Shown: positions 3,348 to 23,179 of the stretch, piece after piece | Layout of the letters: each line of letters starts with the position of its first letter | Numbering within the stretch: the stretch's first letter is position 1 | Origin: Pontiella agarivorans | GTDB lineage: Bacteria > Verrucomicrobiota > Kiritimatiellia > Kiritimatiellales > Pontiellaceae | DNA: 64,000 bases | Direction: 5' to 3' | Assembly: GCF_034531395.1 (NCBI RefSeq) | Contig: NZ_JARVCO010000002.1 | Coordinates: 558,001-622,000 of the forward strand | Translations under genes and position numbers: made by a program | Notes under the pieces: generated by a model | The model's input: only the letters and a program-made list of their open reading frames with translations | Told to the model about the DNA's origin: nothing | Databases searched by the model: none

Positions 3348-4184
3348 ATGATTTCTCTCCTCATTTCCTTTGCAATCTGGGGCATCATCAGCGGCACCTG
3401 CATGGCGGCCGGTGTAAAACACGGATCCATTGCTTACGGGATTCTTGGATTTATTCTGTCGCAGGTGGTGATCAGCCTGGTGACGCGCCGAAAATTCAAG
3501 GCCATCAATAATGAAATGCAGGAAGCTCTCGGTGCCGGGCAGAAAAAAATCCAGCATAAAATTCACCAGTTCCAGAGCAAGCCCGGCGGAAATCCGCGCT
3601 TGATCCAGAAACAGCTTGAGGCCGACCAACAGGCGCTTTTCCGGCAGGCCCTTGATTTTATTCCTAAATTCGAGGCCTATAAAAAATGGAACATTCTTAT
3701 GGGTAAACAGATTTCCACGATGCGCCTGCAGTTTCTCTATCAGCTGAAGGAATTTGATCAGGTCGATGAAATCTTCAAACAGAATTTTATGTCCAGTCCG
3801 GTGCTTTCGGATCCGCTGCTGGTGGCCATGAAAATGGCGAGGCAGTATGCCGGCAAGGATATTGCGGGAGCCGAGAAAACGTTTAAACGCCATATTCGCT
3901 GGTTCCGCGATGATCGCGGCGCACTGTTGTACGGCCTGATGTCCTGGATTCTGGTGAAAGAGAAAAAGACCGACGAAGCACGCGACCTGCTCGCGAAAGC
4001 TAAAGACAAAATGTACAACGAAATCATCAACCGGAATTGGGAGATGCTTTCCAATAACCGCGCGAAGAGTTTTTCCAATGCCGGTTTCGGTGATCCTTGG
4101 TACAGCCTCTATCTTGAAAACCCGCCGGCACCGAAGCAGCAACGTGTGCGCATGAATGCCAAAGGGCAGCAACGCCCGTTCTAA
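3348..4184 (+). CDS. Membrane-anchored protein of unknown function, helical/TPR-like
   Basis: 278 residues that I do not recognise as a named family. Two hydrophobic segments (about 3-22 and 26-46) make an N-terminal membrane hairpin. A basic, mostly alpha-helical soluble part follows, with TPR-like helix pairs (for example QFLYQLKEFDQVDEIFKQNF and LVKEKKTDEARDLLAKAKD). The C-terminus is basic and proline-rich. The layout suggests a membrane-tethered scaffold rather than an enzyme. It is monocistronic, with a strong terminator just downstream at 4209. Its ORF is read through by a long open frame on the other strand, but the start, ribosome binding site and terminator all fit the plus strand. 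Confidence 0.8.
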   Translation: MISLLISFAIWGIISGTCMAAGVKHGSIAYGILGFILSQVVISLVTRRKFKAINNEMQEALGAGQKKIQHKIHQFQSKPGGNPRLIQKQLEADQQALFRQALDFIPKFEAYKKWNILMGKQISTMRLQFLYQLKEFDQVDEIFKQNFMSSPVLSDPLLVAMKMARQYAGKDIAGAEKTFKRHIRWFRDDRGALLYGLMSWILVKEKKTDEARDLLAKAKDKMYNEIINRNWEMLSNNRAKSFSNAGFGDPWYSLYLENPPAPKQQRVRMNAKGQQRPF

Positions 4185-9422: not shown

Positions 9423-9459
9423 AAAAGGCCGGTTTTCTAAACGAAAACCGGCCTTTTTT
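9423..9459. terminator. Bidirectional intrinsic terminator
   Basis: A long GC-rich stem (AAAAGGCCGGTTTTC with its complement) with a T tract on one strand and an A tract on the other. It ends tRNA-Tyr on the plus strand and dus on the minus strand. Confidence 0.92.
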
Positions 9460-10436: not shown

Positions 10437-10466
10437 TTTTTATCATCCACTGGCTTGAAGATACAA

Positions 10467-10502
10467 AGCGCACAGCGGTTTTCTCGTTATCCGCTGTGCG
10501 CT
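10467..10502 (-). terminator. Hairpin after efpL, possible terminator
   Basis: A perfect 12-bp stem (AGCGCACAGCGG and complement) with a 12-nt loop between efpL and dus. The tail on the minus strand is only TTTG, so termination may be partial. Confidence 0.6.
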
Positions 10503-10519
10503 CTGTAGTGAATTATATA

Positions 10520-17947: not shown

Positions 17948-20900
17948 TTAGATGTGGAAATCCTGAATGGACCGAACGTCCCAGTCGTTTTCCTTGATGT
18001 ATTTAATCGCTTTCACCGAGGCTTCCGCGCCGGAGCGGGTGGTGACAATCGGCAGTCCGCGCAGAATGGCTTCGGAACGAATATTGATTTCATCCACCCG
18101 GGCAACCGGTCCGCTGGGTGTATTGATCAGAAGCTGCACACCGTTTTCTTTCATCAGATCGATGACATTTTTTCCGTCTTCGCTGAGTTTATGGGTCAAC
18201 TTGACTTCCAGACCGGCATTGTGAAGGGCCTGGGCGGTGCCCTCGGTGGCCACAAGGCTGAATCCGAGAGCTGAAAATTCGCGGCCCACGGCAACAATCC
18301 AGTCTTTATCGCGATCCTTGGCACTCAGGAAAACGGCCCCTTCAGCGGGCAGCACCTGTCCGGCGGCCACTTCGGCTTTCCAGAAAGCCAGTTCGAAATT
18401 GGAATCAATGCCCATCACTTCCCCGGTGGATTTCATTTCCGGGCCGAGAATCGGATCGACGCCGGCAAACCGATTGAACGGGAATACGGCTTCTTTCACG
18501 GCATACCATTCCATCTTGGGCTCAAAACCAACCATGCCGAGTTCCTTCAGCGTTTTTCCCATGGCGATTTGTGTGGCGAGATTGGCCATCGGAACATTGG
18601 TGGCTTTAGAGACATACGGAACGGTACGGGATGCGCGCGGATTGACTTCGATGATGTAGAACTCGTTGTCTTTCACTGCGATCTGCGCATTCATCAGGCC
18701 TTTCACGCCGATCTCCATCGCCATGGCGGTGCAGGCTTCCTTAATGCGCGCCACCATTTCGTCGGAGAGGGTATAGGGCGGAATCGAGCAGGCGGAGTCG
18801 CCGGAGTGAATGCCGGCTTCCTCAACGTGTTCCATTACACCGCCGACATAGACGTCGGTGCCGTCGCAAACCAGATCAACATCCACTTCGATGGCATGTT
18901 CGAGGAAGCGGTCGATCAGGACCGGATGATCCGGGCTGGCTGCGAAGGCGGCGTTCACGAACGGTTCAAGTTCCTCTTCTTCATAGGCCACCATCATGGC
19001 GCGTCCGCCCAGTACGAAAGAGGGGCGAATCATAACCGGGAACCCGATTTTTTCAGCAATCACTTCAGCTTCTTCCAGGGTGACGGCTGTGGCCGATTCC
19101 GGCTGTTTAAGCTCAAGCTTGTCCAGCAGCTGACGGAACTGTTCGCGATCTTCGGCGGCCGCAATGGATTTCGGTGAAGTTCCCAGGATCGGAACACCGG
19201 CTTCCAGCAGGCGGTCGGCAAGATTGAGTGGGGTCTGTCCGCCCATCTGAACAATCATACCCATCGGTTTTTCGGCTTCGTAGATGTTCATCACATCTTC
19301 GAAGGTGAGCGGTTCGAAATAGAGTTTGTCGGAGGTATCATAGTCGGTCGAAACCGTTTCCGGGTTGGAGTTGACCATGATGGCTTCATAGCCCATTTCC
19401 CGCAGGGCCTTCACGGTGTGAACGCAGGAGTAGTCGAACTCAATCCCCTGGCCGATCCGGTTCGGGCCGGAGCCCAGAACAATGACGCTCTTCTTATCGG
19501 TTTTTCGGGTTTCATCCAGCTGGCCGCCGTAGGTGGAATAGAAATAGGGGGTAGACGCCGCGAATTCACCGGCGCAGGTATCCACCAGACTGTACACCGG
19601 AATCAGGCCCAGCTCTTTCCGCAGGGCACGGATTTTATTGCCTGAAACGCCGCGCAGGGCACCGATCTGTTCGTCGGAAAATCCGTTTTTCTTGGCATAT
19701 TTCAGCAGATCAAAATCCAGTTCGGCTGCATCCATCAATTGTTTTTCAATTTCCACGAGCTGGAGGATCTGGTCGATGAACCAGGGATCGAGATGGGTCA
19801 TCTCCTGGATTTTTTCAATCGTGTATCCTTTTTTCAGACCGGATTTGATGGCAATTGTGCGCTCCGTGCAGGTGGTGTTGAGATAATCGTCGAGACGGTC
19901 CTGATCAATCTTGGCTTCGGCTTTTAGGTCGAGCCCGTCTACGCCGATTTCCAATGAACGGAAGGCTTTCTGCAGTGATTCTTTGAAGTTCCGGCCGATT
20001 GCCATGGTTTCGCCCACGGACTTCATGCTTGGACCGAGTTTCGGGTTTGCTGCAGGGAATTTTTCAAAAGTGAAGCGCGGAATCTTGGTTACGACATAGT
20101 CGATGGAAGGTTCGAAGCAGGCCGGCGTTTCTTTGGTGATATCGTTCGGCAGTTCGTCGAGGGTGTATCCGCAGGCCAGTTTGGCCGCCAGTTTGGCAAT
20201 CGGGAAGCCGGTGGCTTTGGAGGCGAGTGCGGATGAGCGCGATACGCGCGGATTCATTTCAATGACCGCCAGGCGTCCGGTTTCCGGATGGATGCAGAAC
20301 TGAACGTTGGAGCCGCCGGTTTCAACACCGACCACGCGCAGAACAGCCAGCGAAGCATCGCGCATCATCTGATATTCACGGTCGGTGAGGGTCTGGGCCG
20401 GGGCCACGGTGATTGAGTCGCCGGTATGAATGCCCATCGGGTCCATATTTTCGATGGCACAGATGATGACGCAGTTGTCTTTATTATCGCGCATCACTTC
20501 CATCTCGTACTCTTTCCACCCGAGTACGGATTCTTCCAGCAGCACTTCTGTCGTCAGTGACGCTTTAAGTCCGCCTTCAGCAATGGCCAGCAGTTCTTCC
20601 ATATCGTTGGCAAAACCGCCGCCGGTTCCGCCCAGCGTGAAGGAGGGGCGGACAATGATCGGAAAATCAAGTTCTTCGGTTGCGATTCTTTTGGCTTCTT
20701 CAAGGTCGTGAACTTCGTAGCTGCGCAGGGTTTCGATGCCGACTTCGGCCATAGCCTGTTTAAAGAGGTCGCGCTCTTCACCGCGCATGATGGCATCGTA
20801 TTTGGCGCCGATCATTTCCACGCCGTACTTTTCCAGAATCCCCTGTTCCACGAGCTCCATGGCGGCGTTGAGTGCGGTCTGTCCTCCAAGGGTTGGAAGA

Positions 20901-21157
20901 ATGGCATCCGGCTTTTCTTTGATAATGATTTTTTCGATCGCTTCCGGAGTGATCGGTTCGATGTAGGTCCGGTCCGCCGTCGCCGGGTCGGTCATAATGG
21001 TTGCCGGATTGGAGTTAATCAGGGAAATGGTATATCCCTCCTCCCGCAGTGCTTTACACGCCTGGGTTCCGGAATAGTCAAATTCACACGCCTGGCCGAT
21101 GACGATGGGGCCGGAGCCGATAATCAGAATGTGGTGGATGTCTTCTCTCTTAGGCAT
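17948..21157 (-). CDS. carB: Carbamoyl-phosphate synthase large subunit
   Basis: A 1,069-residue CarB making carbamoyl phosphate from ammonia, bicarbonate and two ATP, for arginine and pyrimidine synthesis. The start at 21157 ([22 protein letters not shown]) has TAAGGA upstream. The two homologous ATP-grasp halves are intact: [14 protein letters not shown] in the first and [15 protein letters not shown] in the second. An oligomerisation segment lies between them, and a C-terminal MGS-like allosteric domain runs from about 935 ([17 protein letters not shown]). It is separated from guaA by the GxxExxY cassette. Two one-mismatch palindromes lie in it, at 19949-19963 and 20885-20899. Confidence 0.97.
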
Positions 21158-21169
21158 AATACTGTCCTT

Positions 21170-21205
21170 AACGCAAAGGCGCAAAGCGCGCCGAGTTTCG
21201 CAAAG
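21170..21205. repeat. Left inverted repeat of the GxxExxY cassette (ACGCAAAGG-type)
   Basis: AACGCAAAGGCGCAAAG then a degenerate continuation (GAGTTTCGCAAAG). It is the inverted counterpart of 21591-21629 and abuts the carB ribosome binding site. Confidence 0.8.
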
Positions 21206-21210
21206 TTAAT

Positions 21211-21588
21211 CTATAAGTTGTTTACTATTCGGCTGATTCCGTCTTTTAGCATTGATTCATGATAATTGATTATAAGCGCCAATTTGAAATTGCCCAGGCG
21301 GAGATAGGTCAAGGTTTGAGCCCTGTCTCTGGGGGTAACTTCTTCCTTAGCTTTGTTCTCAACGATCACTTTATTCTCAACAAGCAAATCAATTCGGTAA
21401 TCGGTTTTAAGTTGTTTGCCTTTATACTTCAGTTCCTGACGTTTTTGGCGTTCGTATTTTATTTCCCGCAAATCCAATTCGCAACAAAGAGCTTCTTCAT
21501 AGGCGCTTTCGAGAAGACCGGGACCAAGGTGGCGATGTACTTCAATGGCAGCGCCTATAATTTCCTTGGATAATTCGTTCTCGGTCAT
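21211..21588 (-). CDS. GxxExxY protein (PD-(D/E)XK-like nuclease fold)
   Basis: 125 residues, the usual size for the GxxExxY family. The signature is GLLESAYEEAL, preceded by IIGAAIEVHRHLGPG. DYRIDLLVENKVIVENKA has the D...ENK spacing of a PD-(D/E)XK nuclease-like core, the fold assigned to the family; activity is unproven. An in-frame reading from 21645 would add residues (NAKVQKNTKVRRE) translated from the flanking repeat, so the ATG at 21588 is preferred. It lies in the same orientation between guaA and carB, bounded on both sides by inverted ACGCAAAGG-type repeats, which marks it as an inserted cassette. Such genes are often multicopy in their hosts. Confidence 0.88.
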   Translation of the reverse strand: MTENELSKEIIGAAIEVHRHLGPGLLESAYEEALCCELDLREIKYERQKRQELKYKGKQLKTDYRIDLLVENKVIVENKAKEEVTPRDRAQTLTYLRLGNFKLALIINYHESMLKDGISRIVNNL

Positions 21589-21590
21589 TT

Positions 21591-21629
21591 CTCTGCGAAC
21601 CTTTGTGTTCTTTTGCACCTTTGCGTTTA
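21591..21629. repeat. Right inverted repeat of the GxxExxY cassette
   Basis: On the minus strand it begins AAACGCAAAGGTGCAAAAG and continues with CACAAAGG and CGCAGAG, a degenerate array of the same ~10-nt unit. It ends 3 nt before the guaA stop codon. Confidence 0.8.
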
Positions 21630-21631
21630 AT

Positions 21632-23179
21632 CTATTCCCATTCAATGGTGGACGGCGGCTTGGAGCTGATGTCGTAGCAGACCCGGTTCACGCCGCGCAC
21701 TTCGTTGATGATTCGGTTGGAAATGGAATCCATTACGTCGTATGGCAGTTTGTACCAGTCGGCCGTCATGCCGTCGCGGCTTTCAACCGCACGGACCGCC
21801 ACGACGTTTTCATAGGTGCGGTCATCGCCCATGACGCCGACGGACTGGATCGGGAGCAACACGGCGAAGTATTGCCAGACATCGAGGTGATTCGGCATTT
21901 TCATGATTTCTTCGCGGACGCGCAGGTCGGCCTGCTGGAGTACGTCAATGCGTTCCGGCGTGATGTCACCGATAATGCGCACGGCAAGGCCCGGGCCCGG
22001 GAAGGGCTGGCGGTCTACCACATAGCTCGGCAGCCCGAGTTCCCGGCCGACTTCGCGGACTTCGTCTTTAAAGAGCTCGCGCAGCGGTTCGACGAGTTCA
22101 AACTGAAGGTCTTCCGGAAGACCGCCGACGTTGTGGTGACTCTTAATGGTGGCCGACGGGCCGCCGATTGGAGAGACGGATTCGATGACGTCGGGGTAGA
22201 GTGTGCCCTGACCGAGGAATTTTACTTTATCGCTCAGACCGCGTGCTTTTTCGGCAAATACATCGATGAAGGTGTTGCCGATGATTTTCCGTTTTTCTTC
22301 CGGATCGGAAATTCCTTCAAGTTTGCCGAGGAACAGATCGCCTGCGTGGGCCACAGTCAGGTCGATGCCGAACGCATTGCCGAAGAGTTCTTCAATCTCT
22401 TCCGTTTCCTTGTGGCGCATCAGGCCGTTGTCGACATAAACGCAGTGCAGCTGATCGCCGATGGCTTTGTGGAGCAGCGCGGCAACGACGGAGGAGTCGA
22501 CTCCGCCGGAGAGGCCGAGCAGAACATGGTCATCACCGACCTGATTCTGAATGTTTTTAACCGTGTTTTCGATAAATTTGGACATTTCCCAGTCGCCGGA
22601 GCATTGGCAGACTTTGAATGCAAAGTTCCAGAGCATCTCTTTGCCCTGCGGGGTGTGGACTACTTCCGGGTGGAACTGTACGCCGAAGATATTCCGGTCG
22701 AGATTCTGGATAGCGGCCAGCGGGCAGTTGTCAGATTGGGCCACGACTTCGAAGCCTTTGGGCATGGATTCAACTTTATCGCCGTGACTCATCCAGACCT
22801 GTACGTCCGGTGAAAGCCCTTTAAAGAGCGGGGAGTCTTTGGTGATGCTCATCATGGCCTTGCCGTATTCGGCTTTGGTGCCGCGATGGACCGAACCGCC
22901 GAGCGTCAGAGCGGTGAGCTGCATGCCGTAGCAGATTCCAAGGATTGGAAGCCCGAGGTCAAAAATTGCCGGATCGCATTTCGGCGAGTCTTCATCCGGC
23001 ACGCTGCAGGGGCCGCCGGAGAGGATAATGCCTTTGGGGCTGCGTTTTTTGAGTTCGTCGGCAGGAGTGTCAAAGCGGATAATTTCACAGTAAACCTTTT
23101 GCTCGCGGAGGCGGCGGGCAATCAGCTGGGTGACCTGGGAGCCGTAGTCGAGGATGGCGATCCATTCGGGATGATTCAT
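21632..23179 (-). CDS. guaA: GMP synthase (glutamine-hydrolysing)
   Basis: A 515-residue bifunctional enzyme converting XMP to GMP. The N-terminal class I amidotransferase has LGICYGMQ with the nucleophilic Cys, and the His/Glu pair in VQFHPEVVHT. The PP-loop of the synthetase domain is GLSGGVDSS, and the C-terminal dimerisation domain ends SKPPSTIEWE. The ATG overlaps the stop of carA, so it is translationally coupled to another glutamine amidotransferase. The palindrome at 22936 falls exactly on the conserved LPILGICYG segment, using synonymous choices. Confidence 0.97.
   Translation of the reverse strand: MNHPEWIAILDYGSQVTQLIARRLREQKVYCEIIRFDTPADELKKRSPKGIILSGGPCSVPDEDSPKCDPAIFDLGLPILGICYGMQLTALTLGGSVHRGTKAEYGKAMMSITKDSPLFKGLSPDVQVWMSHGDKVESMPKGFEVVAQSDNCPLAAIQNLDRNIFGVQFHPEVVHTPQGKEMLWNFAFKVCQCSGDWEMSKFIENTVKNIQNQVGDDHVLLGLSGGVDSSVVAALLHKAIGDQLHCVYVDNGLMRHKETEEIEELFGNAFGIDLTVAHAGDLFLGKLEGISDPEEKRKIIGNTFIDVFAEKARGLSDKVKFLGQGTLYPDVIESVSPIGGPSATIKSHHNVGGLPEDLQFELVEPLRELFKDEVREVGRELGLPSYVVDRQPFPGPGLAVRIIGDITPERIDVLQQADLRVREEIMKMPNHLDVWQYFAVLLPIQSVGVMGDDRTYENVVAVRAVESRDGMTADWYKLPYDVMDSISNRIINEVRGVNRVCYDISSKPPSTIEWE
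22936..22950. repeat. Dispersed palindrome, core AGGAT
   Basis: Perfect copy in guaA, minus-strand reading L-P-I-L-G-I next to the catalytic Cys, where the protein sequence is nearly invariant. Confidence 0.9.

Follow-up and report, generated by a model that had tools for sequence, protein, structure and literature searches.

What has placed a gene of 125 codons, framed by inverted repeats, in the short space between two genes of a bacterial operon? The question arises in the window analyzed here, a stretch of 64,000 nucleotides from Pontiella agarivorans, where the minus strand reads carA, guaA, the 125-aa gene, and carB. A first-pass annotation of this DNA had described a PD-(D/E)XK-like gene between inverted degenerate arrays and had taken the whole for a small mobile or mobilisable unit. 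Both parts of the description stand: the gene belongs to the GxxExxY family, and the cassette is very probably a mobile unit, to judge by empty junctions, the same unit at different junctions, boundaries at the arm tips, and a recent transfer.

The cassette in the window

The cassette measures 458 nt from arm tip to arm tip (21170..21627, minus strand). Its limits are set by the inverted repeat, by the elements of relatives, which stop at the arm tips, and by the empty junctions of relatives (6-29 nt). The outer repeat pairs positions 21170-21185 (AACGCAAAGGCGCAAA) with 21612-21627 (TTTGCACCTTTGCGTT), with 15 of 16 positions complementary; both arms extend inward with more degenerate words (to about 21170-21207 and 21591-21627). 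The 5' arm, on the upstream side of the gene (21591..21627, minus strand), consists of four degenerate 7-nt words, ACGCAAAG GTGCAAAAG AACACAAAG GTTCGCAGAG, recognized by sequence, inverted repetition, and the word structure of the family. The 3' arm (21170..21207, plus strand), recognized by sequence and inverted repetition, reads AACGCAAAG GCGCAAAG CGCGCCGAG TTTCGCAAAG. The gene itself (21211..21588, minus strand) runs from an ATG at 21588 to a stop at 21211.

On either side stand host genes. Upstream lies guaA (21632..23179, minus strand; stop codon 21632-21634), an ORF conserved beside carB in relatives; downstream lies carB (17948..21157, minus strand), an ORF with the same N-terminus as in relatives. 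The fit is tight: 4 nt separate the guaA stop codon from the cassette arm, and the carB Shine-Dalgarno sequence AAGGAC (21169-21164) adjoins the arm tip at 21170, with the carB ATG at 21157-21155. The unit sits, as annotated, between the guaA stop and the carB ribosome binding site in operon orientation. The flanks score 13.5 for inverted repetition; in 20 shuffles of this sequence the score never exceeded 10.0. A strict 16-mer search of the same genome recovers the window pair and only four scattered matches with 2 mismatches, the level of a reversed control.

No transposase lies within the cassette, in agreement with the annotation, and GxxExxY is the only ORF with family-level similarity between the arms. 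No known RNA family matched the locus, and defence-system models gave no match. The earlier remark that the repeat is open in the frame of the gene holds for the window (NAKVQKNTKVRRE) but does not extend to the family (44 of 92), where the domain starts after the arm. Elsewhere in the window, two strong, perfect or near-perfect terminator-like hairpins of other sequence (9423-9457 and 10462-10507) are the only others of such strength.

The GxxExxY protein

By profile, the window gene encodes a full-length member of PF13366 (PDDEXK_3; E 9e-38, 130 bits against a cut-off of 22) and of TIGR04256 (E 3.4e-41, 140 bits against a cut-off of 35), in each case above the curated cut-off and over the whole profile; the family is defined as a protein model, and the cassette lies outside that definition. 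The protein conserves E27, Y30, D67, E77-x-K79, Q91, and Y95. D67, E77, and K79 are invariant across 60 sequences, and Q91 and Y95 are kept in at least 90% of them; this is the RecB-type motif set. The AF2 model (pLDDT 95.5) has as its top structural match Cas4 SSO0001 (4ic1_G; Z 9.5, rmsd 3.5, 100 aligned), followed by a match at Z 7.4; lower matches, at Z about 6-7, are restriction-fold nucleases including Cas4, Hjc, MGME1, Dna2, and AddAB. Foldseek gave a match for the model at E 0.0038 only, and a sequence search of solved structures gave only a weak match to T7 endonuclease I (E 0.6). From motifs and fold, the protein is predicted to be a PD-(D/E)XK nuclease of the RecB/Cas4-like branch. 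Nuclease activity is expected of it, and what it acts on we infer. No copy in its site clade evolves faster than that of the window (branch 0.31), which has ENK in place of the usual E[IL]K and retains the catalytic residues.

Inverted arms as a family property

PF13366 genes occur in 49 of 58 relatives' genomes, many of them fragmented assemblies with home-made gene calls, at 1-17 copies each; the annotation had held that family members with many genomic copies would speak for a mobile unit. We scored arms as the best inverted match between the 5' and 3' flanks of a gene, with a threshold of 13. At or above it stand 92 of 110 GxxExxY genes of relatives (median 17), against 4 of 210 control genes from the same loci. 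Across phyla, arms are found at 59 of 79 GxxExxY genes and at 6 of 155 controls; this set was drawn from GTDB genomes by protein similarity to a hand-written consensus query and is thus biased to typical members. It includes Acidobacteria, Bacteroidetes, Planctomycetes, Cyanobacteria, Chloroflexi, Proteobacteria, and Candidatus Altarchaeum, among others. A second family behaves alike: S23 four-helix-bundle proteins (TIGR02436) are known from rRNA intervening sequences (IVS), and inverted arms flank 29 of 39 S23 genes here. Judged by sequence, such units form a widespread family, found among bacteria and in one archaeon or more.

The arms are modular. Those of GxxExxY genes usually hold about three 7-nt words of consensus CRCNRAN, spaced 8-10 nt apart; examples are CACAGAG, CGCAAAG, CACGGAG, CACGAAG, CACTAAT, CACGAAT, and CACAGAT. 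Agreement at the variable positions is 0.87 within an arm and 0.88 between the two arms of an element, and falls to 0.48 between elements. S23 arms are strictly 7-nt periodic in 27 of 29 elements. Minority clades of GxxExxY carry other arms (CAGGAT, ACAGAAGG, ACCACCCGCTC, or plain GGCTACTCTTTATACACATCT). The last kind is seen at L209 and L252 (Bacteroidales bin-5057), where units of about 700 nt, two copies in one genome, have this arm inverted and non-repeated. The 3' arms of L039 and L042 are almost identical save for one added 9-nt word unit (CTTTGCGCT), a difference which suggests that word arrays quickly gain and lose units. Past position 3370 of locus L030, two tandem arm-only hairpins with near-identical interiors follow a GxxExxY gene, like piled-up non-autonomous copies.

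Do the arms serve the transcript? The gene could be an immobile host gene whose hairpin serves regulation or processing, the mRNA counterpart of an rRNA IVS cut by RNase III. The arms can pair in the transcript in silico (whole-element fold z -2.2), and sense orientation in operons, long residence, and purifying selection would all suit such a role. However, sense-strand G-U wobbles are not in excess in the arms (91 vs 80; 51 vs 75; 29 vs 28), so nothing points to upkeep of the complementarity for pairing in RNA. An immobile gene is also hard to square with empty sites and with near-identical units at more than one junction, and as the sole explanation it is already contradicted by the transfers described below. 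We consider this reading quite improbable; a role in mRNA processing could coexist with mobility of the cassette.

Gene and arms at unrelated junctions

In the relatives, 99 elements occupy 61 junctions. When the word class of the arms is mapped on the nuclease tree, it changes 7 times, against 34.8 times in shuffled data (minimum 29); with one row per site it again changes 7 times, against 23.5 (minimum 19). Word class thus tracks nuclease clade, and a clade recurs with its own arms at several unrelated junctions. Near-identical units at unrelated junctions (L089/L100/L099, L019/L022, L020/L023, L209/L252, and L179/L188) share similarity that starts precisely at one arm tip and stops at the other, with unrelated sequence beyond. 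L209 and L252 lie on two contigs of one genome, with units 88% alike; L179 and L188 come from Deltaproteobacteria and Nitrospinota, with units 87% alike. L211 and L234 share their flanks too and therefore give no evidence of movement.

Insertion leaves no consistent target-site duplication. Direct repeats outside the arms average 2.66 in relatives against 2.50 in shuffled sequence, and 1.71 against 1.91 for S23; the cross-phylum set has a weak excess (2.87 vs 2.45), which is not a consistent one. We rejected a classical IS or MITE with a DDE transposase, of which target-site duplication would be the mark. A phage origin was likewise rejected, with the cassette family in none of 50,697 phages and at no IMG/VR locus; it occurs in 8 of 72,556 plasmids.

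Histories of single junctions

The annotation had named the presence of the gene at this locus in all relatives as a sign of vertical inheritance, and an empty guaA-carB junction as something to look for. Among 30 loci upstream of carB, the guaA-carB junction is empty (6-29 nt) in 8. GxxExxY stands at guaA-carB in 5, and 1 further carB locus has a cassette with no guaA upstream. S23 cassettes take the place in 6 (L059, L062, L063, L065, L074, and L082), with 7-nt-period arms that are of the TGAAACYTGAAAC type in four. Arm-only hairpins account for 3 loci, a nucleotidyltransferase-HEPN pair for another 3, and other genes for the remaining 4. The pair, MntA-HepT-like by reading, lies at L055, L057, and L070 (genomes G017, G018, and G014) and lacks word-array arms; L057 read without guaA in its contig. 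At L064, L073, and L080 (G002, G006, and G034), the gene next upstream of carB is a different one, whose protein contains ...ALDLSSTRLREGLKVLNPN.... The sign of vertical inheritance named in the annotation is thus not seen, although an orthologous copy does stand at guaA-carB in several relatives, which indicates that residence is often long and vertical.

The trpE-trpG junction shows a similar series. It is empty in 12 genomes, the window's own included; among the fetched loci it holds an intact GxxExxY gene with CGCAAAG arms in 6, decayed or internally deleted copies that retain their arms in 4, and other insertions, mostly arm-only hairpins, in 8. Copies at one site usually belong to one clade. 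Same-site dN/dS is 0.01-0.11 in most measurable pairs, with dS saturated, and 0.31 in one very close pair. One clade per site, low dN/dS, and saturated dS together point to long residence with the protein kept functional; the resident cassette is under purifying selection.

One pair records a different event. Over the trpE-trpG element and its short flanks (39 nt before it, 37 nt after it), about 515 nt in all, G001 and G017 show 9 substitutions, and one of the two has an additional 9-nt arm unit; in the genes beyond this tract they differ by about 10 substitutions per 60 nt. The alignment marks the tract as recently transferred from one trpE-trpG junction to another, as would be expected of homing or of short-tract recombination. 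It is the sole clear case of co-conversion among about 70 same-site pairs, and when all filled genomes are compared at the start of trpG, a co-conversion signature is indistinguishable from ordinary constraint. Most same-site copies look vertically inherited, so mobility would be slow.

Could the unit be a free-standing homing endonuclease gene, which cuts the empty junction and is copied in by homologous repair, so that its movement is nearly confined to alleles of one junction? Such a gene would leave a tract like that of G001/G017, which takes in about 38 nt on either side of the unit. The patchy distribution, in which some sites hold decayed copies and others are cleanly empty, and the prevalence of one clade per site also agree. 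But homing has no need of arms, which are near universal, and one clade is found at several unrelated junctions. Moreover, one junction can be hit by different word families and clades, as at ribD site s2 and at site s7, and by S23 cassettes. Pure homing is therefore an unlikely account. On these comparisons, the gene and both arms behave as one unit, which has reached many junctions and genomes, where it can be lost altogether or decay until only the arms remain.

Placement within operons

The units are inserted with a strong bias of orientation. In counts from codon-scored gene calls, 77 of 82 GxxExxY units lie in sense between co-directional genes, with 1 antisense, as do all 25 S23 units, with 0 antisense; for control genes the figures are 55 of 101, with 21 antisense. 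The bias is weaker in the cross-phylum GxxExxY set (24 of 35, 1 antisense). The distance from the upstream stop to the arm start has a median of 3 nt for GxxExxY and 7 nt for S23.

Sense-only placement, together with element ends that can pair in RNA, recalls spread through RNA: reverse transcription of operon RNA would yield both the sense bias and the missing target duplication. The window's own genome, however, has no reverse transcriptase (PF00078); nor do 29 of 48 cassette-bearing genomes, or the cassette-rich G007 (17 copies), G041 (16), and G031 (12). We rejected reverse transcriptase as the mover on these absences and regard RNA-mediated spread as very improbable.

Candidate movers

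Which enzyme moves the cassette? DDE_Tnp_1 is absent from the window's own genome and from 17 cassette-bearing genomes, and its density, like that of RVT_1, shows no correlation with S23 or GxxExxY density; it too was rejected. Since DDE_Tnp_1 and reverse transcriptase are each missing from cassette-bearing genomes, both are unnecessary.

Y1_Tnp gives another picture. It is present in 47 of 48 GxxExxY-bearing genomes, and its copies per Mb correlate with those of S23 (rho 0.53) and GxxExxY (rho 0.40), a trend that fits action in trans. The cassette might then be a non-autonomous passenger, moved by a Y1 transposase of the HUH, RAYT type that works on single-stranded hairpins, with the nuclease as cargo in some other role. 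The hairpin ends and the lack of target duplication would suit such a passenger, and Y1 genes are themselves bounded by inverted repeats in 28 of 37 cases. Their arms are different, though: at L283-L322, transposases of about 340 aa lie between inverted repeats of the GGGGTCAG type and those of about 150 aa between repeats of the CCCCGGAGGGG type, not between word arrays. Y1 units in the same genomes show no operon-sense bias (6 of 14, against 77 of 82), G051 has cassettes and no Y1 match, and the correlation comes partly from small reduced genomes, without which the rho for GxxExxY falls to 0.28. Because of the small-genome contribution and the different arms, we rank the cassette's own nuclease first, Y1 second, and pure homing third. 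Transposition by Y1 in trans is an alternative that we think unlikely, if worth keeping in view.

In our best guess, on which we are evenly balanced, the nuclease encoded in this single-gene mobile cassette acts on the arms of its own unit. Degenerate 7-nt words make up the two inverted arms on either side of the RecB/Cas4-like nuclease gene, and the nuclease would be the element's own enzyme of mobility or maintenance. Its recognition sites would be the word arrays, which can fold back when single-stranded. A nick or cut at the arms may launch the unit or break the recipient copy; repair would then copy the unit in, in a homing-like manner at the homologous junction and, rarely, at an ectopic one. 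Insertion is without target duplication, in sense, into the short spacer between stop codon and Shine-Dalgarno sequence of an operon. The sense-only placement may reflect the need of a promoterless gene for host transcription and the tolerance of the host for that spot. Since gene and arms travel together, their co-variation alone is no proof that the protein reads the arms, and the arm-only hairpins at junctions indicate that arms can exist without the gene in cis.

Relation to known systems

The closest parallel is the 23S rRNA IVS of Coxiella burnetii, which is about 430 nt long and has one small sense ORF (S23), paired ends, and tandem 7-nt GACAGAT repeats directly upstream of the ORF (PMC4990558). 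Like the IVS, the operon cassettes described here include S23 genes within 7-nt-period arms, also at guaA-carB. Unlike the IVS, the window unit lies between the protein-coding genes guaA and carB and not in an rRNA gene, its ORF encodes a predicted GxxExxY PD-(D/E)XK nuclease and not an S23 four-helix bundle, and the words of its family are spaced 8-10 nt apart.

Two other systems share single traits. RAYT units (REP-associated tyrosine, or Y1, transposases) are also single genes within inverted repeats, in the same genomes; the cassette differs from RAYT/REP units in having no Y1 transposase gene, in its arm sequences, and in its strong operon-sense bias. Free-standing homing endonuclease genes, PD-(D/E)XK enzymes included, are likewise single intergenic nuclease genes of patchy presence, and the G001/G017 pair adds one allelic transfer with co-conversion of flanks. 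Unlike them, the cassette has word-array arms and ectopic copies, and its target site is only putative.

Implications

Our literature search, with most subscription journals and preprints outside its coverage, found no account of GxxExxY or S23 cassettes as mobile elements. We tentatively suggest, at somewhat less than even confidence, an unrecognized class of single-gene elements spanning many phyla and at least one archaeon. In this class, each unit would be mobilized by its own product, a minimal Cas4/RecB-like nuclease or, for a sister class, the S23 pentamer, which would read modular, concertedly evolving arrays of 7-nt words; insertion would be aimed at stop-start junctions in sense.

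The arm code, with words that vary between elements and are uniform within them, is an unusual recognition problem, and in the junction series the steps of insertion, homing-like transfer, decay, and loss can be read from nature. If the proposal is true, rRNA intervening sequences would gain a mobility system, and their origin would become testable outside rRNA. GxxExxY and S23 are common small families of "hypothetical" proteins; if theirs are the genes of mobile cassettes, both families would acquire a biology.
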